A stretch of 64,000 bases of DNA from Crambe crambe (taxonomy: Eukaryota; Porifera; Demospongiae; Poecilosclerida; Crambeidae). The stretch is from NCBI GenBank assembly GCA_963924555.1, contig OZ004587.1:1550001-1614000 (forward strand), read 5' to 3'. A model generated the notes under the pieces. That model did no database searches and was not told the origin of the DNA. It worked only from the letters and a program-made list of their open reading frames with translations. Below are positions 32,491 through 64,000 of this stretch, one piece after another (position 1 is the first letter of the stretch; each line of letters opens with the position of its first letter). The position numbers and the translations under genes are program-made.

Positions 32491-33742
32491 GTTAACGATT
32501 AAGCGAGCTCATGTACATACTACGCATGTTGGCGGAGAAAGCATACCGTATAGCGGATTATTAATTCGTGGAGTGAGCAAGCTGACTCTCAGGTCATAAA
32601 ATTATAATAATAGCCAAAATGTCCCAGGCATGTGTATGTTGGTACATATCCTGAATTAGTAGCATAAGTGCATTTAGTAGCATAAGTGCATAATGCACAT
32701 GCTCCAATTGTGATTGTTTTCTACAGTCATAGAGGCACTAGGCTTATCTAGGTAAGCATTTACAGCTTTCTATGTATGGAGCTTCCTGGTTGGAACCACC
32801 ACTTACATGACTACAGCAATATCAAGCACTGGAGCCTATCAGCTACTTTATAATTACTCACTGTCAAATGCTGCACATTGCTATAGTAGTAGTTGTAGAG
32901 GCTCCAGGCTTATCTAAGTGCTTTGTTACATAAAAACTCCACAATAAATTTTCTAAAGAGTTGAAGCACTAAATTCTACTTGCTTGCTCGCTATCAAATA
33001 TTATACATTGCACTAGTAGTTTAGAGGGGTAATTGTTTTCATGATTTTCATAGTTGAAAAAAACTTTTACCCACAAAATCCCACATGTGAAAGAAATCAA
33101 CCACGCCCAGCATGCCCCCATATGTATGGTAGTGTGGTAGTATGGACTTAGTACACAGAGATGGAAACAGCTTACATGCACCCATTGCTAGCACCCATAG
33201 CTACAATAATTGTAAAGAAGAGGAGTGTGCTGAATTTCTGTTCAACTCTAGGAATGAAAAAGTATTATTATACAGTACTAAATAAGTATAACTCTAATAT
33301 TGGAGGGTATAATTTAACACCATTAGATGGAAAATGACTCACATTGTGGAACTCTGCACCCTAGGTATTGTAGTCCAGTTTTCCAACTAAATTGTGGCGT
33401 AGTGAATTATAGGTACTTTTTATGAATCATAATTATATCCTTAGTGGTCTCATACTAGTCAGGTCCCTTAGCCTAAATTTAGTGCTGTTTTGTGACAGAG
33501 CGGAACAAAGCATGAAGATTGGCATGATGTTTTTTCATGGCATATTGAATAAATGCAGAAGGGGTGCCATTGTAGGACACTTTTTCCTTCCAAAATAGAA
33601 ACCGTTTTGTTGTTTCACTTCATCCATCCCAAAGTTGCGATATCCGCGAAATATTTAATTTTCGCGCTATTGATATACAAAAGTGCGCGAAATTTAAGAA
33701 TCGCGAAAATAAATTAATTTTTGGCACAGTGCTGGTTTTTTC
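32491..33742. other. Intergenic, no supported gene
   Basis: The upstream side of the Roc-COR gene. The direct repeat TAGTAGCATAAGTGCAT at about 32658-32690 is the only structure noted. Confidence 0.5.
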
Positions 33743-34317
33743 TTGCATCAAGATTCTTGGTTGCCATATACCCTTGAGAGCATGGATTGGAGCAAGTGTA
33801 CCATCTATGGTAAAGCTGGAGCAGGAGATGATTTGAGATGTCCACTGGATAGTCTTCAGAATAATGGTCCTCAGGTATACAGTAACTTTCTGGAAGTAGT
33901 TAAAAAGTTCAGTGAGATTGATGCTATTCCTGTGAATATTCAAATTAGTGGTGATGTGACACCAGGGGAACTTATTGAAAATAAAGCAAAGTGGCATAAA
34001 TCATGCCATTTAAAGTTTAGCTCATCTAAACTTCTCCGAGCTCAAGAACGTCAAAAAAAGGGAGTGAAACGCGAGCTTGAAACTACTAATGAAGAGCAGA
34101 GAAGGTCAAAGCGTCAAGCCAGTGGTATTCCAAACCAAAATGCCTGCACAAGTGAGGCAGGTAAGCTTCACCAGTATTCAACTATGGGGTTAGACAAGGA
34201 ATTGAGGAAGATAGCAAGAGATTTACAAGATACATCACTCCTATTAATACTTGCTGGAGGTGATCTTGTAGCTATTGAAGCCAAATACCATCATAAGTGC
34301 CTTTCATCATATAGGAA

Positions 34318-34552
34318 TCAGAGAGTGCGGTAGCACTCTCTAAGTAGGGATGGCAGGTCAAAGTCCATAGGACAGTATAAACTAAAAACTCTTCTTTCTC
34401 TTCTACCCTTACTCTACAGGTTCTCACAAGTCATGGCCCTATCCCTACATCTACACAGAAGACAGGACAATGTATAATAATCAAAAATTCATTCTATAAC
34501 ATCAACAAAAAATAATTTCAAAAATTGACTTTTGTTCTAGTTTTTCAACATA
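34318..34552 (-). repeat. Terminal unit H of E1L
   Basis: About 235 bp, starting TCAGAGAGTGCGGTAGCACT (a hairpin) and ending near TTGACTTTTGTTCTAG. Same unit as 20451-20689, 57234-57693 (two copies) and 63527-63986 (two copies). Contains no gene. Confidence 0.8.
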
Positions 34553-34563
34553 ATAATAATCAG

Positions 34564-34760
34564 ATCGGCGTACTGACTAACTGGCTATAGTTGTCACAAT
34601 TATAACATGGCGATTAGATGGAGCGGTACTTAGAGGCTGATCTTTTGCTATTCGTTTTCACTAAGGTTATACTTCACAATTCAGTGGTATAGATGCACTA
34701 GCTACTTTTCATCCGCCATTTTGAAGCCTGTGGTGCGTATTACGTATATTACGTAAAATG
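34564..34760 (+). promoter_or_regulatory. Promoter-like tail 1 of E1L (YY1-like site)
   Basis: A conserved block of about 200 bp containing GAGGCTGATCTTTTGCTATT and, near its end, CATCCGCCATTTTGAAG, an inverse match to the YY1 core AAnATGGCGG. It lies directly upstream of the micro-exon gene in the same orientation. Promoter function is inferred. Confidence 0.5.
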
Positions 34761-34923
34761 CAATGCGCGCACGTTGCACGCGCACGTGCTAGCTTCTTTT
34801 GAAGTGCAGCTGCTTTTAAAGTGCAATCCTTCTACCTCTGAATCAAAAAATTAAGTAACAGTCACTCTTCTGAGACAAGGTATGTTATACTCACTCTTTC
34901 CTTTGTTTGACTCCTGAGTCCAG

Positions 34924-35984
34924 TGCTTCTTTTCATTTTATAATCAGCTGCTTGCAACTTTGGAACTGTTTCCTTACAATTCTAGTGCTCTGCAGCTATT
35001 TGTACAAAAAAATGTGTTCAGTGTCAACCATATTCACTCTTTCATAAGTGTTTCTTTCTCTGACTACGTAGCACTATCAGTTTGGAACTACTCCACTGAT
35101 CTCAACCAGTGCCACCTCCAGCTGCACACCCCCTCCCAAAAGGTAAGCAACTAACTAGCTATACATAACACATATCACGATCTTACAATTACATCATCCA
35201 GTGCCACCTCCCTTTGCACACCCCCTCCCAGAAGGTAAGTAACTATTTCATTACTCATACAATTACATCATCCAGTGCCACCCCCAGCTGCGCACCCCAC
35301 CTCCCATTGCACACCCCCTCCCAGAAGGTAAGTAACTAAAGATAACAATTTCATTACTCATACAATTACATCATCCAGTGCCACCTCCAGCTGTGCGCCC
35401 CCTCCCAGAAGGTAAAGAATTATACATAGATAACATATTTCATTACTCTTATATCCAGTGCCACCTCCAGCTGCGCACACCCTCCCAGAAGGTAAGCAAC
35501 TATAGATAACACATTTCATTACTCTTACAATTACGTCATCCAGTACCACCTACTGCACGCCCCCTCGGCCTCCCAGAAGGTAAGCAACTATAAATAAAAC
35601 ATTTCATGATCTTACGATTACATCATCCAGTGCCACCTCCAGCTGCGCACCCCCTCCCAGAAGGTAAGCAACTAACTATAGATAGCATCTTACAATTACT
35701 TCATCCAGTGCCACTTCCAACTGCACACCCTCACCCAGGGTGGAGGGCTAGGGCCAGGGCCAGGCGCAGAGGGAGGGGTGTTCGATTCTGCCCGTTCCCA
35801 TGTGAGTACATACTTAACCATTTTCCACCAACACATTATATAACATGTATCACCATAATCTTTAATTCCAGACCCTAATATGTATCGAGGAAACTGTAAG
35901 TAATATAAAACATTACAAAATCACTTAGCTATATATAGCTACTTGTCTTTTCCAGTGCATTTCCACTATCATCAAAAATAAAAA
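34924..35984 (+). CDS. Micro-exon gene in E1L encoding a proline-rich 11-residue repeat
   Basis: Ten exons with GT-AG junctions: 34924-35142, 35202-35234, 35276-35327, 35379-35411, 35459-35491, 35544-35579, 35631-35663, 35709-35801, 35872-35895, 35956-35984. Introns are 41-70 bp, most beginning GTAAGYAACTA and ending CATCCAG. Exons 4 to 9 have symmetric 1-1 phase. Spliced, one frame stays open throughout: exon 1 ends NQCHLQLHTPSQK, exon 2 gives CHLPLHTPSQK, exons 4, 5 and 7 give VPPPAVRPLPE, VPPPAAHTLPE and VPPPAAHPLPE. Exon 8 adds an Arg-rich stretch (ARARARRRGRG), exon 9 YPNMYRGN, exon 10 LHFHYHQK and TAA at 35979-35981. A leader exon ending at 34879 (donor GTATGT) is likely. No in-frame ATG was found in exon 1 and a stop lies two codons before the leader donor, so translation is unproven. 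Confidence 0.6.
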
Positions 35985-36229
35985 GTAAGTCACGCACTCA
36001 AACACTATAAAACATTTCATTTGTATCTAGCTAAATACTTGCAGAAATTCTCTAACTCAAGGCAAGCATAAAGCTGCTATAGCTTGGCTTCATTTAACCC
36101 TATTGCTTTATAGATATATATCTCGCGATCATCACGTACACAAACAGCAGATCTCTATACTAAGCTTCTGCACAAAATCCTGCTACATCAAATGTGCATG
36201 CGCATCACAAATTGCTACTCTCATTTGCT

Positions 36230-36535
36230 CATTCCCCATATCCTTCCTCGTGCAAGACAACCAAACCTCAACACTCATTTGCACTCCACATGCTCATCCC
36301 TCATACCCTCCTCCCTCATATGCAAGACAACAAAACCTCAACAACTATTATTGATTCATTTCCTTCTGCTCCTCCACTCTAATGTTTTCACTCCTCAGTA
36401 CTGTATTCACTACAGATACTCCTCCTTCATGTCAGTCATACTCTCCTCCCTCAAGACAACAAAACATTCTTCACTCCTATGCTTGCAAACAATAAACCCT
36501 CAGCACACATGCATGAGAGGGTACTCTCAATAAAA
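36230..36535 (+). repeat. Diverged tandem repeat and polyA signals in E1L
   Basis: The motif CAAGACAACAAAACCTCAAC, preceded by CCTCCCTCATATG-type words, recurs about four times. AATAAA occurs at about 36491 and 36529 downstream of the micro-exon gene and could serve as its polyadenylation signal. Confidence 0.5.
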
Positions 36536-36967
36536 AAAACTGCCCAACCACTCCTTATTGCACATGCCCCCACATACATTAATTGAAAAAAAAAAACAAA
36601 AAAAAAACAAAAAAACCAATAGCTAATTAGCTAAGTGTCCAGCCATTCATTTCTTCCAGGTTCTTCACTACTGCACCTTCTCGTTCTGAAACCTCCTCAT
36701 CAGTCAATCATCCCTGAGGAATATAACATTCAAAATTAATCATTCAGCTTTTCTTAGCAAGGGAATGCATATAATTAGCTATTTGCAAACCATAGGTGCA
36801 GGGCATGAAGGAATAACTACTTCTTATGAATATGAATAATACACAAATAATGTTAATAATCTTCCATATCCAGTGCTATGTACTTACCAAATTAAGAACA
36901 TTTCAGAAAATTAAATTTTTAAATATTATCAATTTATAATAGCTAATTACAAAGAAAAAGAATGGAA

Positions 36968-37490
36968 ACAAGTAAGTGCAAAAAATTTCTTCTAAATAAA
37001 AAGTGAAGTAGGGATAGCCATAAAATTTAGCTGCATTCCTATCACTCCTACCCCTCCTAATTTCAATATCCATGCCCATATATATACCCAACTTACGTAA
37101 ATCCCTACTCTTCACTCCCCCTTCAGCAATAAGTGAGTCGAGTAATCCCTTACCCATACCCATCACCAAACTCAAGAATCACAGCAATCATATTATTACA
37201 AAACTACTACTCCTACTTCACTCCTAAGGAGGCCTAGGAGTGAAGTAGGAGTAGTAGTTTTGTAATAATATGATTGCTGTGATTCTTGAGTTTGGTGATG
37301 GGTATGGGTAAGGGATTACTAGACTCACTTATTGCTGAAGGGGGAGTGAAGAGTAGGGATTTACGTAAGTTGGGTATATGTATGGGCATGGATATTGAAA
37401 TTAGGAGGGGTAGGAGTGATAGGAATGCAGCTAAATTTTATGGCTATCCCTATTTCACTTTTTATTTAGAAGAAATTTTTTGCACTTGTA
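36968..37490. repeat. Foldback C of E1L, about 255-bp arms
   Basis: A near-perfect palindrome centred near 37232 (CCTAAGGAGGCCTAGG). Each arm reads outward to AAGTGCAAAAAATTTCTTC. The arms contain the same open frame in inverse (MSLVMGMGKGLL), a by-product of the palindrome. Confidence 0.9.
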
Positions 37491-37507
37491 ATAATAATAA
37501 TAATGTA

Positions 37508-37708
37508 TAAGATCGACGTACCGACTTACTGGCTATAGTCATCAAAATTCTGCTTTGGCCATCTGTTAGAGCGGCACCTAGAGGCTGATCTTTTGCTATT
37601 AGTTTTGACTAAGGCTCTACTTCACTATTCTATAGCACTCGGAACACTGCTAATCTTTCTACGCCATTTTGAAGGGGGCGGGGCTTATGGGCGGAGCCAC
37701 GTAAGCTT
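37508..37708 (+). promoter_or_regulatory. Promoter-like tail 2 of E1L (GC boxes and YY1-like site)
   Basis: The conserved block (GAGGCTGATCTTTTGCTATT) ends with ACGCCATTTTGAAG, then GGGGGCGGGGCTTATGGGCG and GAGCCACG. Two GC boxes and an inverse YY1-like core lie in a tight cluster. The copies in E2, E3 and E1R have the same arrangement. Confidence 0.55.
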
Positions 37709-38513
37709 AAGTTTAGCTATAGCCAAGGTCTTCATTCATTATCTGATGATGTTCCAGTCACTCCTTGCTGAATTACAGTCCTATAGTAGCATTATAGCCA
37801 GTACTTGGCTGTAGTGTAGTCAGCTCGCTTCACCATGCCGTGTACATGTCATTTACATTGCTGTTGCTGTAAAGTTTTATATCAACAAAACTTAAATAGC
37901 TAAGCAAATTCTTCAACCAGAGACACTGTATGTACCTACAAAAGAGGTTTATGTACAGCTGGCTTTGTATAGTACTGTACTGTAGCCTCCCTCATTCAAC
38001 TTCAAGCACTAAGAAAAAGGATAGAAACAAGTGAGCGTAAAAAATTTCTTCAAATAAAAAGGTTAAGTAGGGATAGCCTAAAATCTAGCTGGGCTATCTA
38101 TAATGTGCTGCAGCCTCGTATGAAAAAAATCTTCGCGATATCACCTCATAAAAGGGGTGGGGCAATTAATAGCAGTTCTCCTCATATAACACCTGCACAG
38201 GATGTGGCCATTTGATGGCATCCACTATTATGATCACTACACCAAATGCATAAACTCCCCATACTCCTCCCTCAAGCAAGACATACGTACCATCTCAATA
38301 ATTATTTCAGTGATCACATATGTAACAATTAGCTAATGCTGTTCACTTTTTAAAATGTTCACTCCTTTCAGTACTCCATTACACTGCAGATGATCATCCT
38401 TCAAACTCTCCTCCCTGAACAGAATGAAATACTGATCATTAAATAAATTTAGTTCAATCAAGGAAGCCTTTAGTGTCTATCAATTTTCATAATCACAAAG
38501 AAAAAGAATGCAA

Positions 38514-38961
38514 ACAAGTGAATGCAAAAAATTTCTTCGAAATAAAAATGTGAAGTAGGGATGCTATTATAACTGCAGCTTCATTATGAAAACCAAGTAC
38601 TGCAGCATCGAAGCAGTATGGCCCAAAAATCTAGCTGGAATATGTATTATAACTGCATGCAAGAGAGTTAACTTAGTGAAGTGACCCTTACCCATCATCA
38701 AGTACAAGATACTGTTCCTACTTCACTCCCATGATCAAGGGCCAAGGGAGTGAAGTAGGAATAGTATCTCGTACTTGATGATGGGTAAGGGTCACTTCAC
38801 TAAGTTCACTCTCTTGCATGCAGTTATAATACATATTCCAGCTAGATTTTTGGGCCATACTGCTTCGATGCTGCAGTACTTGGTTTTCATAATGAAGCTG
38901 CAGTTATAATAGCATCCCTACTTCACATTTTTATTTCGAAGAAATTTTTTGCATTCACTTG
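38514..38961. repeat. Foldback A of E1L, about 220-bp arms
   Basis: A palindrome centred near 38737 with CAAGTGAATGC at the left and GCATTCACTTG at the right; the right end is the element end. The arms are almost perfect inverses. Confidence 0.9.
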
Positions 38962-41639
38962 TAAGCATAGAAGTATGCAAAGAGCTTCGTGTGCCTCTAG
39001 TGATACTTCTACTGAGGAAAATATTCTACAAGCATGGGCATTTGCAGAGCTGGTATCTTACATTGAATGTAATGTGGATGATGGTACCTATGTTTTTAAG
39101 TTATCTGAGTTATATGTACTTTATGAGAACCGTTTACAAGATTTGGATATTAAAAAAGCTGTTAATAGAACAAGACTAAAAGCACAATTACTGGGCCACT
39201 TTTTTGGTGAATGTCAGGAAGAATCAAGTGGAAGAAATGTATTACTTGTATTTAAAGAGGGTTTAAAGAAGCTACTTAAAGATTGCTTGGATACCCCTGA
39301 CTTTGAGTCAGAAGCACTTTTGATATCTAAGGTAGCTAAGATTATAAGACAAGAAATATTTCAGTGGAAACAGTTTCATTTTAGTGGCCAATTTCCACCT
39401 AATTGTCAAAGTCACTCAATACCAACACTTCTTCAATCTCTCATTTCAATGTTAATCAATGGGCCAAATGTAAAGAATCAAAATTCTACTGAATCCCAAG
39501 CCTGCCTAACAATTTCTCAACTCCTTTTATTCCATGCTAAGAAGTTTTCAGATGCAGTTAGAACCAGGCACTGTAAGGATCGAGAACCTCCCCTTCCCAT
39601 TTATTTGGGACTCCAAATTCATACTCTTACTAGAAGCAGAAAACTTGTTAATTCACTGTATAAACTTGGGGTTAGTATCAGTTATAACCATGTAAATGAG
39701 TTGGAGAAATTACTTGCTAATGCTGTTTGTAAGCATTTTGAAGTTGAAGGTGTAGTTTGTCCAACAAACTTACGTACAGGGCTTTTCACTGTGGGAGCTC
39801 TTGATAACATAGATCACAACCCTTCCTCTACAACAGCACAAGGCTCCTTCCATGGTACGGGAATTACTAACTATGGCATAGATAGGGAACCACTACAGCT
39901 CAACTCTGAAACTTCTAGTTCTGGCAAATGCTCACTTCCACAGCATTATACCAGTGTACCCGCTCTTACCTGTCAAGTCAATACAATTACTGTTCCTGAA
40001 TCTGCTCCTGTTAACAATATCCAGGGATATCTTGATGCAGCTAAAGAAGAAGAGATGAAGTGGATTGACCATGGAATGAAGCTGCTAGAAAAAAATGCGC
40101 TTGACAAGAAAGAATATATTTCATGGGCTGCTTTTCATGCATCCTTGCAACAAAACCCTACCAATCCTTCTGCTCCTTCTGCCACTATTCTATGAAAAGG
40201 CCGCAACCTTGTCAATGATAAAGTATGGAATGAATGCACTCAAAGATATTACTGATTATCTTAATCCTGGTCAAGTTCCTGTCGTTGCCTTCGATCAGCC
40301 TTTATTTGCTCTTGCAAAATACGTACAGTGACAGTGGCCTATAACACATGGCGAAGGAAAGTTTGTGATAATATTTGGTGGTCTCCATATCGAAATGGCT
40401 CTGTGGAATGTAATTGGGGATTTTCTGGAAGATGCAGGTTGGACAGTGGCCTTAACTGATGCTGGAATTGCTTCATCTGGGACGGCAGACTCATTTTTGA
40501 AGGCTACTCATCTCACCAGAACTAGACACGCTCATCAAGTCATGATGCTAGCGCTTGCTAAGCTCCAACGTGAAGCTTGGCAAGCATTTGCCTCTTCCAA
40601 TTCAGAAGACATTTCCTTTGAGATATGGCGACAGAATATGAGAGCAAGGAGCCCAACCTTTCTTTACTGGGACCTCATATTCGAGTTTGAGATGATGACT
40701 CTCATATTCATTCGTGCACATCGTATCAATGATTTCAATCATTGGAGAACCTCGTGCCATGGTTTTTTGTATTGGATCATACCAATTATGCTCGGTGGAT
40801 ACCCATTCATATTAAGGATATGCAATCTCTTCCTGATAGTATTGCCGATGAATTTAGGAAATGTTGGGTACTTCAAAAGACCCAACACGTATTCTCTTGT
40901 ATGCCTCTTGATCAAGGTCATGAACAGAATAATGAGTTGGTGAAAGGTTCTGGTGGAGTTGTGGGGATAACTGAAAATCCTACTCGATGATTGTCCTGAG
41001 TTATTAGTTCTGGATACTCGCAACTGCATAAGTGAAGCTGTTATAGAAACAGTGCGGAGTATCAAAGACCTTGGTGTGTCCCAGTATGAAGAGTTTGTGA
41101 AAGATGTCATTATCACCAGGGAAGTATCCATTCATCAACCCATCAAAAAACATTTTTTACCACTGTTTAAAGACCCTTACCACGAAAGCGTACTAAAGGT
41201 AAGCAGGAGATTGCCAGTCTCAAAAGTGATTGCAATCTTTTCAGTCACTCATACATTGCCAGCAAGTTTCGTGATGGTGATTTGGAAGACTTCTTTGCTC
41301 ACGAGAATCAGCCTTGGCCTCCGTCTCTTTCCGATCATGGAAAATTGAGGCTACCAACCAAAAAATCTGATCTGCTTAGTTTACTGGATACAGATCCCAC
41401 TCCTCAAGAACCTCCCTCTTACTTTCATGCAAAGATAGTAGATGGCCCTGCTATAGTACATATTCTTCCTTGTAAGCTGATATCAACATTCAAAGATTAC
41501 TTTGTTCCTCCTCTCAGAGCACCCATCTGTGAAAGTGATGGAGGGCAAGGCTGGTTTTCATGTTGAAAGAACTGATCAAGGTCACCATCACGAACTTGAG
41601 AGGCAATGTATAGCCTGGAAAAGAGAGAGCAGTTGTTCT

Positions 41640-43268
41640 TCAAACTTGAAATCTGCTGCTGTTTGCTTGATTGTTGTGACTTGCAGCGATACCGCTATCA
41701 AGGGTCCAATTGCATGCCTGCCCGAGTCCTATACCAGCATCCCTCCTGCTACTCTCATCAAACAAGATCCACCTGTACCACAGCTAACAGGCCCAAACAA
41801 AGCTGACTGTCAGATCATACCACAGGCAGTGGAAGAGGAATATAGGTTGGTTTTAACTTGGTTCACTTTTTGATGAATAAAATTTATTAGCTTTGTATTG
41901 CAGATGGCTGGAGCATTTGAAACAGGTTCTCGACATAGACATGGACATCTTGTCTGAGGATCAGATGATCTCATGGGCTGCTTATCATGCCAGTCAGCAA
42001 GTAGCACCGCCTGATGACAGTGAAGTGGCTCTCATTTCCATGTTACCCCTCTTCCATGACCAAGCTAAGTCAGTAGCCATGATCCGTCACTCCATGAACA
42101 TTGTGAAGACAGCAGTTGAAATCCTGGTCAGGTGCCAGTTCTTGCATGCGATCAGCCACTGTATTCGCTTGCAAAGCAGATTCAGTGGACTTGGCCCGAT
42201 AGTCATGGTGAAAAACAATTTGTGATCATGTTTGGTGGACTACATATTGAGATGGCAACTCTCAAGGTACTTGGAAATCTTTTGGAAGACAGTGGGTGGA
42301 CAGGAGCACTCACTCAGGCTTGTGTTGCTGGACCTGGGACAGCAGATTCATTCTTGAAAGCAGTGCACGTGACACGTACCAGACGGGCCCATCAAGTCAC
42401 AGCCAGTAGTCTTTATCTACTCCTGCAGAAGGCATATGCTAAGTACAGAGAAGAAGCTGAAGGTGAAGTGATGTCAATGGAAGAGTGGCGCACAGATAGG
42501 GCTGCTGCATGTCCCCATTTCAAATTCTGGAGCATTATTCTGCTGCTGGAACTGACTTTGATGATCTATGTGAGAGCCATACGAAAGGGGAACTTTGAAC
42601 TCTACATAGAGTCCTTGACAAAGATTGTTCCATGGTTCTTTGCTTTAGACCATACCCATTACTCCAGATGGGTGCCAGTTCACTTGCGTGATATGGTTTC
42701 ACTGAAGGAGTGTCATCCCAGTGTCTATGAAGAGTTTGTGAAGGGGAATTTCACTGTGAAGAAGTCAAAGCATGCATTTTCTGCGATTGCAATTGACCAT
42801 GCACATGAGCAGAACAATGCGTCAGTGAAAGGAGATGGTGGAGCTGTAGGCCTGACTGAAAATCCGTCTGCTCTACGACGTTGGATGGTGTCTGGTCCTG
42901 AGATGGCTCGTTTGATTGGAGAGTTTGAGAGTTCTATCATGGAGAAGCAGGACAGAGATTGCCGTCACCACGAGCAGAAAAGGCACACTCAAATAGCTTT
43001 TGCACGAGATGTGAAAGCACTGAGCACAACAATGGAAGGTATGGGGAACCCATTCACCGAGGAAAGCAGTGATCTTCTTGTGTTGGACAGCAGGAATATT
43101 GTAGATACAGCAGTGGCAGACACAGTAGAGCAGATTGAGCAACTAGGGCTTAAATTGTATGAGGCATATGTGGATGAGAGACTGGTGAATCAGAGAATAC
43201 CAATATATGATACGATCAAACGTAACAACCTGCATTTGTTCAGTCGGCCTCCAGTCAAGGAAAAATAA
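41640..43268 (+). pseudogene. Copy 2, C-terminal half of the HEQNN-type protein
   Basis: Reads LPESYTSIPPATLIKQDPP and then, across an intron at 41846-41903 (GTTGGT..TTGCAG), EEEYR|WLEHLKQV. Conserved motifs follow: MISWAAYHASQQ, VPVLACDQPLYSLAKQ, FGGLHIEMATLKVLGNLL, GTADSFLKAVHVTRTRRAHQ, LDHTHYSRWVPVHLRDM, DHAHEQNNASVKGDGGAVG. It stops at NLHLFSRPPVKEK, exactly where it meets the oppositely oriented N-terminal half; the copy 1 protein goes on (FRDGDLEDFFAHEN). A one-base shift near 42120 breaks the frame. The lower density of lesions suggests it is younger than copy 1. Confidence 0.75.
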
Positions 43269-44859
43269 CCTGGTGAACTCCACTGTTGTCTTTGTTTGGA
43301 TGCTGAAACAAAGACTGTGCAGTTCCATGGAATGCATCATGAGCAGAAGTGGAGCTAGGATTGTGATCTATGTTGTCAATAGCAGCAGTTGTGAAGAGGC
43401 CACATTTAAGCTCAGGAGGACAAACACCATTTATAACATGGTAGTGATGACATATCTTGTTGCCTAGCTCAGTTGAAATCTCTAACACACGGTTGTATGA
43501 GATACTCAAACCCAGCTGGTACATAGTATCCACTAGTTCACGCTTGCGAGTCTTGGTGTGAAGCATCACACCTACATAGATGGGCAAGGGTGTTTCTCTT
43601 TCCTGGCTATGTTTGACCGTACTTGAAACATGATCCTTCCGGGATCGCACCAAACTGTTGTGCATCAGCAACTGTGAAATAGTCAGAACTGGCTGGGACA
43701 ATGTGGTTGAACTTGACTGTACTTCAATATTTGGTCCACACAAAACCATAGCTACTAAAGACAAGAGAGAAGTTGGGATGGACTTTTCCTGGCATTTCAT
43801 TTCAAACGAACCATTAAATTGGTTTTTCAACTTGAACATGTCTCTTCTAACAATCTTAGCTGCCCTGGCAAGATGAAAGGCATCATTGTCAGCATCATGC
43901 TCACAAGCCTTCCTCAGTGCAGATCCAATATCTCTGTTAGAAATGAGGACTACTTCTCGTCCTTGCTTGTGAGCTTCCATGTCAGGAAAATATCCCAGTA
44001 GTCTATCTTTGAGCTTGGTGGAGTGAATGCGTCCAGATACATCAGTTCCAAGCTGTTTCAACCTTGTGCTATAGAGATTCACCAGATCTTTGAGTTTAAA
44101 GACAGGTGCAATGAGATCATCCATGCATGTATCTTCAATGTATGTCACTAGTTCAGCAAATGCTATACCATGGTTCACATTGTCAACATCTAAATCATGA
44201 CATTCTTTTATTTCAGAATCCCTTGCTCTGTTGTACAATGATACCAGACACTGTACATGATACTTGGCATCTTGTGCAATCAGGTCACCTGAGCTCAGTT
44301 TTGCAAGCAGCTGTTCATCCTGCAGTTTGATGGCATATTGTCTCACCTTGACGTCTACTCCAAAAGTTGATGCTTTGCATAAGGACTTTCCAGCAGGTGC
44401 AGGCTTACCACAAAAGAAACATGTATCAATGGATGTACGCAAATCTTCTGAACACCTACGACTAAATCTCATATTGGCTTCCGTATCACCTTCATCATCA
44501 TCTACCAGTCTCTTTCTCTTCTCTGCTCGTCGTAGCTGGGTTTTATTATACCGAAGTCTACACGAATCATGCCACCTGGCCTTGTGCTTCTTTAGTGTAG
44601 CCTCAACCCCCTCACCATCATCAAGCCGTGACAAATTCAATGTCTTTGGCAAGCAACCTATGGCACTAAAACCCATGAGAAAATCTGCAATTGTTGAGTA
44701 GCCTGCCCCCTGTGTGCCACGACGGGACTCAGCTGGACATTGAAGAACCTCTGTTGAATCTTCCTGGCACAGAAAGCACTTGCTCCAGTCAGTTACCACA
44801 ACTTGTGCTGATGCCTGAGGGTACCTAAGAGGGTCCACCACCTTGTAGATCTTTGCCAT
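43255..44859 (-). pseudogene. Copy 2, N-terminal half, opposite strand
   Basis: One open frame of about 534 codons from MAKIYKVVDPLRY (ATG at 44859). It has a cysteine-rich start (DWSKCFLCQ..LQCP), a second cluster (CFFCGKPAPAGKSLC), GIAFAELVTYIED, QERETPLPIYVGVMLHTKTR, AAIDNIDHNPSSTSAHDAFH, and ends SGVHQVIFP. It aligns by eye with copy 1 over its whole length. Its end overlaps the end of the plus-strand C-terminal half by 14 bp, so the two halves are convergent rather than head-to-tail. The N-terminal cysteines suggest metal or nucleic-acid binding. It may still be expressed as a truncated protein. Confidence 0.75.
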
Positions 44860-44865
44860 TACCAC

Positions 44866-45634
44866 TCTATGAGAAGGTAGATATAGAGTAGCTTTTTGGG
44901 TATGCTTATATACAAGTATTTTATATACTTACCATCAAAGGGGCCTTTCTCTTGCTATCTTGCTATAGCTATTCCAGCTGGTACCATGTGGCAGAATCAC
45001 ATGACTGAAGTGTCAATTTTGTACTTCATGTAGGTGAAAATAGGTCTAGGCCACAAGATTGTACATATGTGCTGTCATGGAGTCTGTTTTAAAATGGTCA
45101 CCCAATCACTGGCGGCCATTTTGAAAATTGCGCTGCCATTTTTATTGTGGGTCAAATTAGCAATGTCCCTATAGCCAATAATGTTTTAAAAGGTATACTC
45201 AGACTGTGCACAAAGTTTCATGCTTTTATCATAAAAGGCACAATTCATCTAAATATTGCACATATTTCCTGTACTATGCGTCCATATTGCACTGATAAAC
45301 TTGACTCTGAAGTTTAGTAATCAGTTTATTTTTACATTATACCTATATACATTATAATAGGTGGAAAGATCTTGAGTGTAGGTAAACAAATGTATCCAAA
45401 GACTTCCTTCAGTTTGGTTGAAGGTATGTACTTTTATTTCATTGTGACCGAATTTGACAATTTTACACAGATAATAAATTTGAGATTCAGTCACAATAGC
45501 TAATTATTAATTTGGTGTGCACAATTCCAATCTATTGTCCATTTATTTCGAAGCAAATTACAACTATTGCTATGCATGGTTTGGCCACATACATACCAAT
45601 GGAGTACTCATGAATTTTCATTGCATACATGCAG
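44866..45634. other. Spacer between the N-half copy and the BEN-domain gene
   Basis: No coding signal. It contains GGCGGCCATTTTGAAAATTG (about 45112-45131), a YY1-like core, which could belong to a promoter for either flanking gene; that role is a guess. Confidence 0.4.
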
Positions 45635-47156
45635 GTGGCTCCTGTGAAATCTCCAAAACCAAGCACACACTTAAAGTTGGTGAAGGGAGCAAGAAGAAGT
45701 ATAGGTCAAAAAAGGAAGCTCCCTCTATGGAATCCACGACTGATTATTGTGGTATATCTGCCCTCTGCTACAGAAATCAATTCACCACTCTTATTAAGAC
45801 TTGACCACTTTCTTATATTCTGCAGTTTCCCAATTGGTACAGCAAAACTCGCAGATTTTGAAATTGCTGACTACTGTCATTCAACAGTCACACCAGCCAT
45901 CAATAGCTTCCTGTCTACAACCTCAATTCCTCCCTCTCCAGCCACCATATTCACTCCAGCAGCCAGCTCTCCAGCAATCAGCTGTCCACAATCCACAGCT
46001 ACCCAGCAGACCTCACTCCAGCAGCAAACTCTGCAGCAGACTTCATTTCAGCAACAACCTTCCCAGCTGACCTCACTCCAGCAACCACTTATAGACCTGA
46101 CTTCCCTCCAGCAGCCTGCTACCCAGCAGATTTCATTTAAGCAACAACTTCACCAGCAGACTTCGCAGTCTTCACTTCAGCAGCAAACCTCCGTCCAGCA
46201 GCCAGCTACCCAACAGGCTTCATTATCTCACCAGCAAACTTCACAAGGTTCGCAGCAAACCTCACTCCAGCAGCCAGCTACACAGCAAACCTCAGTCCAG
46301 CAATTTCAACGGCACCAGCACTCTTCAATTCAACAGCAAGCTTCCCAACAGACCTCACTCCAGCAGCCAGCTCTCCAGCAGACACAATTCCAGCAACAGA
46401 CACAATTGCAAACTCCACAGTTTACTTCACTCCAACTACAGCCAACTACCCATTTCAGCAGCCAGCGACCCAGCAATATCCAACCCCTTTTCAACAACAG
46501 CAGGTTCCCCAGCAAACTCCCCCTCGGACTTCTATTCGGAAATCAAGTATGCAGTCACCTGTCCAGGAACTTGATGAAGACGTACAAATTCTCTCACAAA
46601 AAATTTCCCCCCCCCCAAGAGCTATGGACCATAATATGGTTACAGACGAATTTTACAATGTGCTTGAAGATTCAGATTACCTGAGTTCATGGGATTTTTC
46701 TACCAGCGATAATGAAGGAACCAGTGAGGTTCAATTCTCATCACCACAGAATGAGACATCCTCTAGTACAGAAACAGCAATCTCCCAACCTTCAACACCA
46801 AAACCTACACCTAGCATGAAGATTCACCCCCTCCTTTCAAAACTCCACCAAAGTTAAGGAAGGTAGAGGAAGTAATGAACGATCATGGTGGAACGGATGT
46901 AGCAAGTTTAAGAAACCTGACAACTGCTTTAGCTAGGGAAGCAATTTTTGGGAAAGAAGAATTGGCGAAGAACAGCTTAAGTGGTCACAAAAATACTGGA
47001 GTTTTAAATAAAGAAAAACTTAGTTATATCAAGACTTTGGTGAAATCACGAGTACCTGGAATGACACAAGTAGAATTTGAACATATCTGGACATTATGTA
47101 GAGGATCACTCTCTAAGTCTTGTCAAGCAATTCGTGCAAGTTTCAGGCGCAATTAG
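45635..47156 (+). CDS. Q-rich BEN-domain protein (frameshifted)
   Basis: Exon 45635-45751 (acceptor CATGCAG, donor GTATAT) and exon 45826-47156 (acceptor ATTCTGCAG) join in phase: KEAPSMESTTDYC then VSQLVQQNSQILKLLTTV, a short coiled-coil-like helix. A long Gln-rich repeat follows (TSLQQPATQQ-type units), then an acidic Ser-rich linker. The C-terminal BEN domain reads LRNLTTALAREAIFGKEEL, then LNKEKLSYIKTLVKSRVPG, and ends CQAIRASFRRN with TAG at 47154. BEN domains bind DNA or protein in chromatin and transcription control. Frame changes occur near 45998, between about 46440 and 46540, and near the C run at about 46830. Upstream exons are unknown. It is a real locus, but as given the frame is broken. 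Confidence 0.65.
46000..46540 (+). repeat. Coding minisatellite of CAG-rich units
   Basis: Imperfect units of about 30 bp encode TSLQQPATQQ-like decamers, more than ten of them. Insertions and deletions that are not multiples of three probably explain the frame changes around this block. Confidence 0.75.
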
Positions 47157-52266: not shown

Positions 52267-52800
52267 GTCTTAATTGGCTTATTGTAGCAGTGTCCTAGCT
52301 TATTTTAGTGGTGTCCTAACTTATTTTAGTGTTGTCCTAAATTATTTTAGTGGTGTCCTAGCTTATTGTAGTGGTGTCCTAACTTATTTTAGCGGTGCCC
52401 TGGCTTATTTTAGCGGTGTCCTGGCTTATTTTAGCAGTGTCCTGGCTTATTTTAGCGGTGTCCTGGCTTATTTTAGCGGTGTCCTGGCTTATTTTAGCAG
52501 TGTCCTGGCTTATTTTAGCGGTGTCCTGGCTTATTTTAGCGGTGTCCTGGCTTATTTTAGCGGTGTCCTGGCTTATTTTAGCGGTGTCCTGGCTTATTTT
52601 AGCGGTGTCCTGGCTTATTTTAGCGGTGTCCTGGCTTATTTTAGTGGTGTCCTGGCTTATTTTAGCGGTGTCCTGGCTTATTTTAGCGGTGTCCTGGCTT
52701 ATTTTAGCGGTGTCCTGGCTTATTTTAGTGGTGTCCTGGCTTATTTTAGTGGTGTCCTAGCTTATTTTAGTGGTGTCCTAGCTTATATTTAGCAGTGTCC
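52267..52800 (+). repeat. 21-bp minisatellite, about 25 units
   Basis: Unit GTGTCCTGGCTTATTTTAGCG with few variants (AGCGG, AGTGG, AGCAG). The 21-bp period is a multiple of three, so long ORFs reading YFSGVLA repeats appear, but they are products of the period. Variation is concentrated at the two ends, the centre being nearly uniform, typical of unequal exchange. Confidence 0.95.
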
Positions 52801-52829
52801 TAGTATGACACTGACTAAGTATCTATGGA

Positions 52830-53277
52830 CAAGTGAATGCAAAAAATTTCTTCGAAATAAAAATGTGAAGTAGGGATGCTATTATAACTGCAGCTTCATT
52901 ATGAAAACCAAGTACTGCAGCATCGAAGCAGTATGGCCCAAAAATCTAGCTGGAATATGTATTATAACTGCATGCAAGAGAGTGAACTTAGTGAAGTGAC
53001 CCTTACCCATCATCAAGTACGAGATACTATTCCTACTTCACTCCCTTGGCCCTTGATCATGGGAGTGAAGTAGGAACAGTATCTTGTACTTGATGATGGG
53101 TAAGGGTCACTTCACTAAGTTAACTCTCTTGCATGCAGTTATAATACATATTCCAGCTAGATTTTTGGGCCATACTGCTTCGATGCTGCAGTACTTGGTT
53201 TTCATAATGAAGCTGCAGTTATAATAGCATCCCTACTTCACATTTTTATTTCGAAGAAATTTTTTGCATTCACTTGT
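52830..53277. repeat. Foldback A of E1R
   Basis: Same palindrome as 38514-38961. It begins at the element start and ends GCATTCACTTG. Confidence 0.9.
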
Positions 53278-54082
53278 TTGCATTCTTTTTCTTTGTGATT
53301 ATGAAAATTGATAGACACTAAAGGCTTCCTTGATTGAACTAAATTTATTTAATGATCAGTATTTCATTCTGTTCAGGGAGGAGAGTTTGAAGGATGATCA
53401 TCTGCAGTGTAATGGAGTACTGAAAGGAGTGAACATTTTAAAAAGTGAACAGCATTAGCTAATTGTTACATATGTGATCACTGAAATAATTATTGAGATG
53501 GTACGTATGTCTTGCTTGAGGGAGGAGTATGGGGAGTTTATGCATTTGGTGTAGTGATCATAATAGTGGATGCCATCAAATGGCCACATCCTGTGCAGGT
53601 GTTATATGAGGAGAACTGCTATTAATTGCCCCACCCCTTTTATGAGGTGATATCGCGAAGATTTTTTTCATACGAGGCTGCAGCACATTATAGATAGCCC
53701 AGCTAGATTTTAGGCTATCCCTACTTAACCTTTTTATTTGAAGAAATTTTTTACGCTCACTTGTTTCTATCCTTTTTCTTAGTGCTTGAAGTTGAATGAG
53801 GGAGGCTACAGTACAGTACTATACAAAGCCAGCTGTACATAAACCTCTTTTGTAGGTACATACAGTGTCTCTGGTTGAAGAATTTGCTTAGCTATTTAAG
53901 TTTTGTTGATATAAAACTTTACAGCAACAGCAATGTAAATGACATGTACACGGCATGGTGAAGCGAGCTGACTACACTACAGCCAAGTACTGGCTATAAT
54001 GCTACTATAGGACTGTAATTCAGCAAGGAGTGACTGGAACATCATCAGATAATGAATGAAGACCTTGGCTATAGCTAAACTT

Positions 54083-54283
54083 AAGCTTACGTGGCTCCGC
54101 CCATAAGCCCCGCCCCCTTCAAAATGGCGTAGAAAGATTAGCAGTGTTCCGAGTGCTATAGAATAGTGAAGTAGAGCCTTAGTCAAAACTAATAGCAAAA
54201 GATCAGCCTCTAGGTGCCGCTCTAACAGATGGCCAAAGCAGAATTTTGATGACTATAGCCAGTAAGTCGGTACGTCGATCTTA
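54083..54283 (-). promoter_or_regulatory. Promoter-like tail 2 of E1R
   Basis: Inverse of 37508-37708: GGCTCCGCCCATAAGCCCCG, then CCCCCTTCAAAATGGCGTAG. GC boxes and a YY1-like core AAAATGGCG point to minus-strand transcription. Confidence 0.55.
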
Positions 54284-54300
54284 TACATTATTATTATTAT

Positions 54301-54823
54301 TACAAGTGCAAAAAATTTCTTCTAAATAAAAAGTGAAATAGGGATAGCCATAAAATTTAGCTGCATTCCTATCACTCCTACCCCTCCTAATTTCAATATC
54401 CATGCCCATACATATACCCAACTTACGTAAATCCCTACTCTTCACTCCCCCTTCAGCAATAAGTGAGTCTAGTAATCCCTTACCCATACCCATCACCAAA
54501 CTCAAGAATCACAGCAATCATATTATTACAAAACTACTACTCCTACTTCACTCCTAGGCCTCCTTAGGAGTGAAGTAGGAGTAGTAGTTTTGTAATAATA
54601 TGATTGCTGTGATTCTTGAGTTTGGTGATGGGTATGGGTAAGGGATTACTCGACTCACTTATTGCTGAAGGGGGAGTGAAGAGTAGGGATTTACGTAAGT
54701 TGGGTATATATATGGGCATGGATATTGAAATTAGGAGGGGTAGGAGTGATAGGAATGCAGCTAAATTTTATGGCTATCCCTACTTCACTTTTTATTTAGA
54801 AGAAATTTTTTGCACTTACTTGT
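54301..54823. repeat. Foldback C of E1R
   Basis: Same near-perfect palindrome as in E1L, centred near 54559. Confidence 0.9.
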
Positions 54824-55806
54824 TTCCATTCTTTTTCTTTGTAATTAGCTATTATAAATTGATAATATTTAAAAATTTAATTTTCTGAAATGTTCTTAAT
54901 TTGGTAAGTACATAGCACTGGATATGGAAGATTATTAACATTATTTGTGTATTATTCATATTCATAAGAAGTAGTTATTCCTTCATGCCCTGCACCTATG
55001 GTTTGCAAATAGCTAATTATATGCATTCCCTTGCTAAGAAAAGCTGAATGATTAATTTTGAATGTTATATTCCTCAGGGATGATTGACTGATGAGGAGGT
55101 TTCAGAACGAGAAGGTGCAGTAGTGAAGAACCTGGAAGAAATGAATGGCTGGACACTTAGCTAATTAGCTATTGGTTTTTTTGTTTTTTTTTTGTTTTTT
55201 TTTTTCAATTAATGTATGTGGGGGCATGTGCAATAAGGAGTGGTTGGGCAGTTTTTTTTATTGAGAGTACCCTCTCATGCATGTGTGCTGAGGGTTTATT
55301 GTTTGCAAGCATAGGAGTGAAGAATGTTTTGTTGTCTTGAGGGAGGAGAGTATGACTGACATGAAGGAGGAGTATCTGTAGTGAATACAGTACTGAGGAG
55401 TGAAAACATTAGAGTGGAGGAGCAGAAGGAAATGAATCAATAATAGTTGTTGAGGTTTTGTTGTCTTGCATATGAGGGAGGAGGGTATGAGGGATGAGCA
55501 TGTGGAGTGCAAATGAGTGTTGAGGTTTGGTTGTCTTGCACGAGGAAGGATATGGGGAATGAGCAAATGAGAGTAGCAATTTGTGATGCGCATGCACATT
55601 TGATGTAGCAGGATTTTGTGCAGAAGCTTAGTATAGAGATCTGCTGTTTGTGTACGTGATGATCGCGAGATATATATCTATAAAGCAATAGGGTTAAATG
55701 AAGCCAAGCTATAGCAGCTTTATGCTTGCCTTGAGTTAGAGAATTTCTGCAAGTATTTAGCTAGATACAAATGAAATGTTTTATAGTGTTTGAGTGCGTG
55801 ACTTAC

Positions 55807-56867
55807 TTTTTATTTTTGATGATAGTGGAAATGCACTGGAAAAGACAAGTAGCTATATATAGCTAAGTGATTTTGTAATGTTTTATATTACTTACAGTTT
55901 CCTCGATACATATTAGGGTCTGGAATTAAAGATTATGGTGATACATGTTATATAATGTGTTGGTGGAAAATGGTTAAGTATGTACTCACATGGGAACGGG
56001 CAGAATCGAACACCCCTCCCTCTGCGCCTGGCCCTGGCCCTAGCCCTCCACCCTGGGTGAGGGTGTGCAGTTGGAAGTGGCACTGGATGAAGTAATTGTA
56101 AGATGCTATCTATAGTTAGTTGCTTACCTTCTGGGAGGGGGTGCGCAGCTGGAGGTGGCACTGGATGATGTAATCGTAAGATCATGAAATGTTTTATTTA
56201 TAGTTGCTTACCTTCTGGGAGGCCGAGGGGGCGTGCAGTAGGTGGTACTGGATGACGTAATTGTAAGAGTAATGAAATGTGTTATCTATAGTTGCTTACC
56301 TTCTGGGAGGGTGTGCGCAGCTGGAGGTGGCACTGGATATAAGAGTAATGAAATATGTTATCTATGTATAATTCTTTACCTTCTGGGAGGGGGCGCACAG
56401 CTGGAGGTGGCACTGGATGATGTAATTGTATGAGTAATGAAATTGTTATCTTTAGTTACTTACCTTCTGGGAGGGGGTGTGCAATGGGAGGTGGGGTGCG
56501 CAGCTGGGGGTGGCACTGGATGATGTAATTGTATGAGTAATGAAATAGTTACTTACCTTCTGGGAGGGGGTGTGCAAAGGGAGGTGGCACTGGATGATGT
56601 AATTGTAAGATCGTGATATGTGTTATGTATAGCTAGTTAGTTGCTTACCTTTTGGGAGGGGGTGTGCAGCTGGAGGTGGCACTGGTTGAGATCAGTGGAG
56701 TAGTTCCAAACTGATAGTGCTACGTAGTCAGAGAAAGAAACACTTATGAAAGAGTGAATATGGTTGACACTGAACACATTTTTTTGTACAAATAGCTGCA
56801 GAGCACTAGAATTGTAAGGAAACAGTTCCAAAGTTGCAAGCAGCTGATTATAAAATGAAAAGAAGCA
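55807..56867 (-). CDS. Micro-exon gene in E1R
   Basis: The inverse twin of the E1L gene; exon coordinates are 91,791 minus those given there (for example exon 2 at 56557-56589 and exon 7 at 56128-56160). All splice dinucleotides and the open frame appear unchanged. As in E1L, no in-frame ATG was found upstream. Preservation of every splice site in both copies is expected from recent duplication and does not by itself show selection. Confidence 0.6.
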
Positions 56868-57030
56868 CTGGACTCAGGAGTCAAACAAAGGAAAGAGTGA
56901 GTATAACATACCTTGTCTCAGAAGAGTGACTGTTACTTAATTTTTTGATTCAGAGGTAGAAGGATTGCACTTTAAAAGCAGCTGCACTTCAAAAGAAGCT
57001 AGCACGTGCGCGTGCAACGCGCGCGCATTG

Positions 57031-57227
57031 CATTTTACGTAATACTACGTAATACGCACCACAGGCTTCAAAATGGCGGATGAAAAGTAGCTAGTGCATC
57101 TATACCACTGAATTGTGAAGTATAACCTTAGTGAAAACGAATAGCAAAAGATCAGCCTCTAAGTACCGCTCCATCTAATCGCCATGTTATAATTGTGACA
57201 ACTATAGCCAGTTAGTCAGTACGCCGA
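57031..57227 (-). promoter_or_regulatory. Promoter-like tail 1 of E1R (YY1-like site)
   Basis: Contains CTTCAAAATGGCGGATGAAA, a close match to the YY1 consensus, and the conserved AATAGCAAAAGATCAGCCTC word. Upstream of the minus-strand micro-exon gene. Confidence 0.5.
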
Positions 57228-57233
57228 TCTGAT

Positions 57234-57693
57234 TATTATTATGTTGAAAAACTAGAACAAAAGTCAATTTTTGAAATTATTTTTTGTTGATGTTATAGAA
57301 TGAATTTTTTTGATTATTATACATTGTCCTGTCTTCTGTGTAGATGTAGGGATAGGGCCATGACTTGTGAGAACCTGTAGAGTAAGGGTAGAAGAGAAAG
57401 AAGAGTTTTTAGTTTATACTGTCCTATGGACTTTGACCTGCCATCCCTCTACCGCACTCTCTGATAAAGAAAAAGAACGAAAAGTCAATTTTAGAACTCG
57501 TTTTTTTCTTATGTTGGCGAATGAATTTTCGGCTTTTGAACATTCTCCTCTCTTCTTTGTAGATATAATAATTCACTGTAGCCTTCTGAGAACCTGTAGA
57601 GTGAGAGTAGAAGAGAAAGAAGAGTTTTTAGTTTATACTGTCCTATGGACTTTGACCTGCCATCCCTACTTAGAGTGCTACCGCACTCTCTGA
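57234..57693 (+). repeat. Two tandem terminal units H of E1R
   Basis: The first unit ends CTCTGA at 57464 and the second starts TAAAGAAAAAG at 57465 and ends CTCTGA at 57693. The first lacks 12 bases of its terminal hairpin. The two are diverged from each other (for example AGAACTCG against TTGAAATTA), so the tandem is not a fresh duplication. Confidence 0.8.
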
Positions 57694-60372: not shown

Positions 60373-60822
60373 GTAGGCCGCAAAAAAAAGTTTCCGTTCC
60401 GTCTACGTAGAACTGGCGTTGCACGCCTGTGCCCACCGTAACGTTCACGAAGAAACGGTACGTATACGTAGGTGAAAAAACGTTGTTACAAAAGGTAACC
60501 CTATGGCTACGTAGCTAAAGCTTAAAGACTAGCTAGTCTCGCGAGCCAGCCTAGAGAACTATATATACGTAGCTATCTCTCTCGGCTGACTAGCTTATGT
60601 TGGTACTAGAGCTAGCTAGCGCTTCACGCGCACTTACAGCTAGCTATGGTACGTAGCTATAACACCACCCATGTTTATGATGATGTTCTATTTTCAGATT
60701 TGCAGTATGATGAAACTTTACAGACACGATGAAGGCAGAAGAAATTGTACCACCACTAGCATGCACGAGTGTATTATGAGCTAGAGGGGTGTGGCAAGCT
60801 TTATTAATAATATTATTATTAA
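60373..60822. other. No supported gene
   Basis: Spacer between the 80-bp repeat and element E2. CpG-rich words CTACGTAG and ACGTATACGT are frequent. The MITE-like stretch GTTCCGTCTACGTAGAAC is a short palindrome. Confidence 0.5.
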
Positions 60823-61734
60823 CAAGTAAACGCAAAAAATTTCTTCTAAATAAAAAGGTTAAGTAGGGATAGCTTAAAATCTAGCTGGGCTATAATATAA
60901 TGTACTGCAGCCTTGTATGAAAATAATCCCTACATTTATATCCACTACCTATAGCTAGCTATGGCAGTTGTAAAAGTAGGGATTATTTTCATACAAGGCT
61001 GCAGTACATTATATTATAGCCCAGCTAGATTTTAAGCTATCCCTACTTAACCTTTTTATTTAGAAGAAATTTTTTGCGTTTACTTGTTTCTATCCTTTTT
61101 TCATAGTGCTTGAAGTTGAATGTAAGTTGTGTATGTAAAGAATTGAGTGGCAGTATTGACTGTCACTTCAACTGAGAGTATGCAGTGATTATTAATGTGA
61201 CATGAGTATCTCTTTCTTTTGTAGGTACATACACAGTCTCTGCATGGTTGAAGAATTTATTTAGCTATTTAAGTTTTGTCGTATTATTTACTTTACAGCA
61301 ACAGCAATGTAAATGACATGTGCATGGCATGGTGAAGTGAGCTGACTACACTACAGCCAAGTACTGGCTATAAACACTACTATAAGATGAGCATCTGTAC
61401 TGTAATTCAGCAAGGAGTGACTGTAACATCATCAGATAAGAATAAATAGCGATTAAACTGAAGACCTATAGCGAGCTTAGCTAGCTTAAGAAGCTTACGT
61501 GGCTCCGCCCATAAGCCCCGCCCCCTAACGACGTGCGCTTCAAAATGGCGTAGAAAGATTAGCTAGTGCCGAGTGCTATCGAATAGTGAAGTAGAGCCTT
61601 AGTCAAAACTAAGAGCAAAAGATCAGCCTCTAGGTGTCGCTCTAACAGATGGCCAAAGCAGAATTTTGATGACTATAGCCAGTAAGTCGGGGCGTCGATC
61701 TTATATTTATTATCCTTATTATTATTATTATAAG
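60823..61734 (+). repeat. E2 module 1
   Basis: Foldback 60823-61087 (arms with AAGTAGGGATAGCTTAAAA and ATAATGTACTGCAGCCTTG), body with GGTACATACACAGTCTCTGC, and inverted tail 61497-61705 with GGCTCCGCCCATAAGCCCCG and TTCAAAATGGCGTAG. Confidence 0.85.
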
Positions 61735-62638
61735 CGCAAAAAATTTCTTCTAAATAAAAAGGTTAAGTAGGGATAGCTTAAAATCTAGCTGGGCTATAAT
61801 ATAATGTACTGCAGCCTTGTATGAAAATAATCCCTACATTTATATCCACTACCTATAGCTAGCTATGGCAGTTGTAAAAGTAGGGATTATTTTCATACAA
61901 GGCTGCAGTACATTATATTATAGCCCAGCTAGATTTTAAGCTATCCCTACTTAACCTTTTTATTTAGAAGAAATTTTTTGCGCTTACTTGTTTCTATCCT
62001 TTTTTCATAGTGCTTGAAGTTGAATATAAGTTTGTGTATGTAAAGAATTGAGTGGCAGTATTGACTGTCACTTCAACTGAGAGTATGCAGTGATTATTAA
62101 TGTGACATGAGTATCTCTTTCTTTTGTAGGTACATACACAGTCTCTGCATGGTTGAAGAATTTGTTTAGCTATTTAAGTTTTGTCTATTATTTACTTTAC
62201 AGCAACAGCAATGTAAATGACATGTGCATGGCATGGTGAAGTGAGCTGACTACACTACAGCCAAGTACTGGCTATAAACACTACTATAAGATGAGCATCT
62301 GTACTGTAATTCAGCAAGGAGTGACTGTAACATCATCAGATAAGAATAAATAGCGATTAAACTGAAGACCTATAGCGAGCTTAGCTAGCTTAAGAAGCTT
62401 ACGTGGCTCCGCCCATAAGCCCCGCCCCCTAACGACGTGCGCTTCAAAATGGCGTAGAAAGATTAGCTAGTGCCGAGTGCTATCGAATAGTGAAGTAGAG
62501 CCTTAGTCAAAACTAAGAGCAAAAGATCAGCCTCTAGGTGCCGCTCTAACAGATGGCCAAAGCAGAATTTTGATGACTATAGCCAGTAAGTCGGGGCGTC
62601 GATCTTATATTTATTATCCTTATTATTATTATTATAAG
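61735..62638 (+). repeat. E2 module 2
   Basis: Same layout as module 1. Foldback to about 61991, inverted GC-box/YY1-like tail about 62401-62609. Confidence 0.9.
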
Positions 62639-63986: not shown

Positions 63987-64000
63987 TAATAATTATTGGC

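Follow-up and report, generated by a model that had tools for sequence, protein, structure and literature searches.

Do the short tandem units of exon and intron found within a mobile element of the sponge Crambe crambe make up a gene, or only a repeat that resembles one? The window, that is the whole stretch of DNA analysed, comprised 64,000 nt of C. crambe contig OZ004587.1 (positions 1,550,001-1,614,000), and the genome searched comprised 143,139,886 bases in 119 contigs. A sequence-only reading of the window had proposed a micro-exon gene riding on a transposon, in which exon and intron expand together as one unit, and this proposal was supported by the comparison of genomic copies. As the sequences are best read, it is likely that a small protein gene of many exons, with expandable exon-intron units, is carried by non-autonomous Helitron2-like elements of C. 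crambe. The features of the window copy and of its carrier are shown in Table 1.

Table 1. Features of the carrier element and predicted exons of the window copy (window coordinates)
Feature	Position	Strand	Remarks
Gene-carrying non-autonomous Helitron2-like element, subfamily 1	34318..37487, end approximate	+	many copies with start 34317/34318 and end at or near 37487
5′ terminus TCAGAGAGTGCGGTAGCACTCTCT, hairpin with 9-bp stem	34318..34341	+	
Leader, candidate donor at 34880 (CAAG/GTATGT), without in-frame ATG for array	34727..35109	+	
Repeat exon 1, 33 bp, VPPPAAHPLPK	35110..35142	+	
Repeat exon 2, 33 bp, VPPPFAHPLPE	35202..35234	+	
Frame-breaking 52-bp exon	35276..35327	+	in 19/22 subfamily-1 sequences
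Repeat exon 4, 33 bp, VPPPAVRPLPE	35379..35411	+	
Repeat exon 5, 33 bp, VPPPAAHTLPE	35459..35491	+	
Repeat exon 6, 36 bp, VPPTARPLGLPE	35544..35579	+	
Repeat exon 7, 33 bp, VPPPAAHPLPE	35631..35663	+	
Tail exon A, 93 bp, Pro/His start, Arg/Gly-rich stretch, RFCPFP end	35709..35801	+	
Intron A, 70 bp	35802..35871	+	subfamily consensuses differ at 3/65 aligned sites
Tail exon B, 24 bp, YPNMYRGN	35872..35895	+	8/24 sites differ between subfamily consensuses
Intron B, 60 bp	35896..35955	+	2/56 aligned sites differ between subfamily consensuses
Tail exon C up to stop, 26 bp, LHFHYHQK	35956..35981	+	10/26 sites differ between subfamily consensuses
Likely intron C, past stop (AAAAA/GTAAGT ... TTGCAG/AAATTC)	35985..36049	+	read from sequence
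∼514-bp palindrome, element 3′ end	36974..37487	.	self inverted repeat, 97.7% identical
Second element, same terminal type, joined to first	37489..38962	+	
Inverted twin of 34317-38962	52829..57465	-	99.66% identical over 4649 bp

The whole inserted block measures ∼4.65 kb (34318-38961, also delimited 34317-38962), and the end of the gene-carrying element is approximate because the second element abuts it directly. The inverted twin mentioned in the sequence-only reading was confirmed, with its exons at 55810-56681. A sequence near the 5′ end of the element, AAGTAGGGATGGC, reappears inverted within the 3′ palindrome (by eye), and a 35-base pattern of the 5′ terminus, with one base left free, occurred 841 times in the genome, against 0 for the reversed control. 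With AT set between the sequences that flank 34317-38962, an interrupted ORF was restored at the one site examined; the window insertion was therefore made without target duplication. The ORF split by the insertion (33713-34333 and 38963-40195) resembles by eye another at 43255-44928, and Pfam gave no match for either.

Matches to Helitron_like_N numbered 67 in the genome. On contig C1, where the listing of termini is complete, two of the three Helitron_like_N loci had the 5′ terminus of the element on their own strand, 4.0-4.1 kb upstream. A Rep locus read directly (L061) ran from the terminus through the leader to an ORF with DUF6570, at least 933 aa long. A palindrome of the element's 3′ type lay ∼10 kb downstream (in L062), but it belongs to an inverted short element there. 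The autonomous Helitron protein at L061:1402-4200 has a run of HRQELKVRSQEYNRA-type repeats at its N-terminus. At 63526-63989 of the window the 230-bp 5′ end of the element was repeated in tandem, and similar runs at ∼230-bp steps were seen elsewhere in the genome. Short related elements (37836-37900 and 60800-63529) had this leader too, and in them a CACCATGCC start led into a Cys-rich reading, MPCTCHLHCCCCK, that varied among copies at silent positions (by eye). Two other repeats in the window were a 21-bp minisatellite of ∼25 copies, open in several frames and adjoining the end of the inverted twin (52275-52801), and a long Gln-rich ORF built of SLQQPATQQ-type repeats (45614-46684).

The coordinates of the window copy bore out the tandem units with GT-AG ends and introns of 41-70 bp (in order 59, 41, 51, 47, 52, 51, 45, 70 and 60 bp), and the array at 35110-35663 was also detected by Tandem Repeats Finder. 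Exon sizes had been given as 24-52 bp, most of them 33 bp; this held for the repeat exons and exon B, but the Arg-rich exon is 93 bp. The exons were mostly symmetric, as had been described, with the exception of the 52-bp exon, which is not a multiple of 3. A single open frame, also claimed, could not be upheld for this copy: with the 52-bp exon the frame met a stop inside the Arg-rich exon, and without it the frame was open to the tail stop (35979-35981). No in-frame ATG was found when the leader donor at 34880 was used, and a search of 34924-35109 for an exon in frame with the array found none.

Subfamily 1 consisted of the window copy, its twin and L009-L028 (22 sequences). An in-frame ATG was absent from 13 of the 14 loci tried with the leader splice, and a CACCATGCC start was seen near the array in none of the 22 sequences. 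Three loci, L024, L025 and L027, lacked the 52-bp exon, and all their canonical exons were multiples of 3. L024 (G000:C3:8245600-8254000) combined this absence with an in-frame leader ATG (MQCARVGLLLFVQQ, followed by the array), and subfamily 1 is therefore not uniformly broken. Tails with an intact frame were found in 20 of the 22 sequences, and in 18 both frame and splice sites were intact. Judged from its sequence, the window copy is probably a degenerate member of a transposon-borne micro-exon gene family.

The extent of this family was assessed by two genome searches. The window region gave at least 52 DNA matches (40 of 94 candidates scored), while the tail peptide gave 59 matches (E up to 1) that ranged from intact to broken. 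Among the 50 of these 59 that were examined, all but L045 and the partial L047 represented two subfamilies or fragments thereof; a match outside the 50, C3:515299, had a 120-aa open frame. Subfamily 2 comprised 26 loci (L029-L040, L046 and L048-L060); in those scored in the DNA search, identity to the window across the gene was ∼76-80%. Where long flanks were available, three of four subfamily-2 loci matched the 5′ end region of the element and all four matched its 3′ palindrome.

The predicted subfamily-2 gene opens with an ATG exon, which is followed by 2-18 repeat micro-exons of the VPPPAAHPLPE type; next come an Arg/Gly-rich exon and two tail exons with a shared stop. Introns in the array were mostly 46-61 bp. 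The ATG context CACCATGCC opened the first exon upstream of the array in 16 of the 26 loci. The predicted product begins MPVPPAAHPLPE, proceeds through the repeat exons and ends with VPSPASHPHPEGAWRGRARARRRGRGRQRFCPFPYPNMYNGNLHFHYHGR before the stop. Models were assembled for five loci, skipping units without both splice sites; two were intact from start to stop (L029 and L032, with 15 and eight exons, respectively, ahead of the tail, counting the ATG exon) and three were frame-shifted (L031, L038 and L059). Exon number did vary among genomic copies, a comparison already envisaged in the sequence-only reading: the 2-18 canonical repeat exons of the 26 subfamily-2 loci compare with 3-7 in 21 subfamily-1 loci (twin dropped), in counts that exclude the 52-bp exon, include some truncated loci and may be one too high where a tail exon was unrecognised. 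Outside subfamily 1, 14 of 27 tails (L047 included) had an intact frame, 11 of them with intact splice sites also.

Evidence of coding was sought in the lengths of the units. In 47 sequences (twin dropped) a unit profile identified 365 full units, of which 352 had AG and GT ends; a further 90 partial units, into which the 52-bp subfamily-1 exon fell, were set aside and lie outside the length counts. Exon lengths were multiples of 3 in 334 of the 352 canonical units, or 313 of 331 after removal of the 21 that begin the Arg-rich exon. The most frequent length was 33 bp (271 units, 21 of them the start of tail exon A), followed by 36 bp (54) and 30 bp (7). Intron lengths were distributed 60/111/104 modulo 3, i.e. 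without frame-keeping. Among variants present in at least two loci, 28 of 30 exons were multiples of 3 versus 7 of 24 introns. Stops in the repeat-exon readings numbered 0, 2 and 0 of 334 in the three frames; all frames are thus nearly stop-free, and an open frame is therefore weak evidence for coding.

The 23-codon tail was compared between subfamilies 1 and 2, giving 14.7 silent differences (Sd) at 13.0 sites and 5.3 amino-acid differences (Nd) at 56.0 sites (pN 0.10), with a Fisher p of 1.7e-11 that is rough because silent changes were entered as 15 of 15. Purifying selection on the C-terminal tail is strong, and the silent sites there are saturated. The tail of L027 differed from that of subfamily 1 by 5.0 silent changes at 13.0 sites and 2.0 amino-acid changes at 56.0 sites. 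In the repeat exons no residue selection was detected, pN/pS being 0.75 in the true frame versus 0.73 and 0.63 in the shifted frames. The dN/dS check that the sequence-only reading had suggested for the repeat exons thus gave a divided outcome, with strong constraint in the tail and none beyond the shifted-frame controls in the repeats themselves.

An intronless homologue, L045, has the tail joined at both predicted junctions A and B (by eye); it is a single fragment of uncertain origin that spans the tail only, and its tail part found no second DNA match in the genome. In L047, intron A is half deleted and the presumed intron C is gone at its ends, with one base ambiguous. Joined repeat exons gave 0 matches in the genome (one pattern, up to one mismatch), and conservation measured per column of the unit did not clearly set the splice sites apart from other columns. 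A search of a protein collection (7991 candidates scored) returned one match, an unnamed ENA protein that reads through the introns.

The silent sites of the tail present a puzzle, having diverged much more quickly than the introns that separate the tail exons. Subfamily consensuses, drawn from 18 and 26 copies with L021, L023, L027 and the twin left out, differed at 18 of 50 sites in exons B and C versus 5 of 121 in introns A and B (p 2.1e-7), and for silent sites versus introns the p of 4.5e-16 is again rough, with silent changes entered as 15 of 15. Exon A differed at 15 of 93 sites, the 3′ exon at just 2 of 51, and the hyperdivergence of the tail ended at the predicted splice junctions. 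The comparison of L027 with subfamily 1 resembled this, with differences at 15 of 143 exon sites, 2 of 190 sites in introns A to C and 3 of 51 in the 3′ exon. The noncoding baseline was patchy: of 21 downstream 60-bp bins, 11 had p ≤0.07 and 10 had p 0.10-0.28.

Exon-specific mutation was considered as a cause, and is spoken against by singletons in the 18 subfamily-1 copies, which fell at 7 of 143 sites in exons and at 5 of 130 in introns, with no exon excess; this comparison covers subfamily 1 only, the 24 subfamily-2 copies being left out as deletion copies were misaligned. Small-RNA escape is weakened by long stretches of repeat exon that are identical between subfamilies (by eye) and by the low divergence of the 3′ exon. 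None of the other causes considered (message-level selection, exon-only conversion, intron constraint) accounts for the whole silent-site pattern. That the Helitron maintains its own cassette gene, while the silent sites of the tail are driven by a sensor of the spliced message such as small-RNA silencing, appears unlikely. Through this puzzle, message-level selection on a transposon would become directly testable.

The simplest alternative to a gene is a GC-rich minisatellite with a unit of ∼80-90 bp, in which GT and AG occur by chance. The array is indeed a true tandem repeat, amino-acid constraint is absent from the repeat exons, and the near stop-free frames throughout mean that openness proves little. 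This alternative, against which the sequence-only reading had set its gene, does not explain why frame is kept by exon lengths and not by intron lengths, nor a non-repeated tail with saturated silent changes and few amino-acid changes, nor the ATG in good context that opens subfamily 2, nor the joining of the tail at predicted junctions in L045. We regard it as very improbable, the lack of residue constraint in the repeat exons notwithstanding. A different possibility is that a host gene was captured and spread by Helitrons, so that the host gene would be the target of selection and the element copies mere passengers. Capture is a known habit of Helitrons, according to PMC4289320, and this possibility draws further on the frame-shifting exon of most subfamily-1 sequences and on L045, intronless and with a tail part unmatched elsewhere in the genome. 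The 50 of 59 tail matches examined included no intact host locus, and the flanks of the subfamily-2 loci point to a gene that the element already carried when the two subfamilies diverged; host-gene capture of this kind is rated as doubtful.

It could also be that subfamily-1 copies, that of the window included, produce variable peptides from an unrecognised start by exon skipping, the 52-bp exon among those skipped. The frame that reaches the tail stop once this exon is omitted, the intact tail frames, the preponderance of silent change between L027 and subfamily 1, and the ATG of L024 all favour such a reading. The general lack of an in-frame ATG under the leader splice argues against it, as does the youth of the subfamily, in which intact tails may merely reflect recent copying, and we think it quite improbable.

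We return to the favoured reading, a gene carried by the element itself. In subfamily 2 the gene would begin at an ATG within the element's own leader and continue through a variable count of symmetric exons, mostly of 33 or 36 bp, to the Arg/Gly-rich exon and two short tail exons. Entire exon-intron units would be gained and lost as tandem repeats, and, with almost all units being of phase 1-1, exon number could change while the frame is kept. Going by composition, the gene likely encodes a Pro-rich, disordered protein that has a basic Arg/Gly stretch and a conserved aromatic/His tail; it is presumably intracellular and probably binds nucleic acid, either on behalf of the element or as a passenger. 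Subfamily 1 has multiplied although most of its copies are frame-shifted and have no ATG, and the gene is therefore probably not needed in cis for mobility. Such a design offers a route to a protein of variable length, in which exon and intron multiply together and the number of repeats is free to change with the frame unbroken.

The carrier can be placed beside known transposons. Helitron2 features, namely a terminal hairpin and an asymmetric inverted repeat, are used here as defined in PMC5148889. Set against the Helitron2/Helentron group and its non-autonomous HINE/DINE derivatives as described there, the sponge element is alike in the hairpin at the 5′ tip, the asymmetric inverted subterminal repeat, the tandem runs of 5′ ends, the absence of target duplication (window site) and the existence of larger Rep-bearing relatives with a common 5′ end. 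Helitron2 is there described as inserting after TTTT or in TT, whereas the sponge element lies between A and T (one site). It further differs from Helitron2/Helentron in its 3′ end, ACTTG instead of CTRR, and in carrying a micro-exon gene. The canonical Helitron1 has 5′ TC, 3′ CTRR and a hairpin 10-12 nt upstream; the sponge element shares the 5′ TC and the A/T site, but terminates 3′ in ACTTG, preceded by a long palindrome.

The sequence-only reading had likened the gene to the micro-exon genes of schistosomes, which, in the parts of PMC8293314 and PMC10526429 consulted, are characterized by many short symmetric exons and for which a link to transposable elements is reported. The parallel stands as regards short symmetric exons, whose skipping or addition leaves the frame intact, with the 52-bp exon of subfamily 1 as the sponge exception. 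It does not extend to secretion; a secreted micro-exon protein was rejected, no signal peptide being evident by eye at the subfamily-2 start MPVPPAAHPLPE. Schistosome introns are described as long, in contrast to the short introns of the sponge array, and the sponge gene lies inside the element; the likeness is one of design, and no kinship of sequence is claimed. Helitrons with captured genes are known from maize and from Pleurotus (the HELPO1 cap genes), and some of the genes carried are expressed or differently spliced (PMC4289320 and PMC4528327). The sponge gene differs from these in being a tandem exon-intron array, in its presence in two diverged subfamilies and in the strong purifying selection on its tail. 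Among the titles and abstract openings surveyed, no micro-exon gene of this kind in a sponge Helitron was found. The sponge micro-exon gene array is a variant new among gene-carrying Helitrons, a length-variable gene design spread by a Helitron-like transposon.
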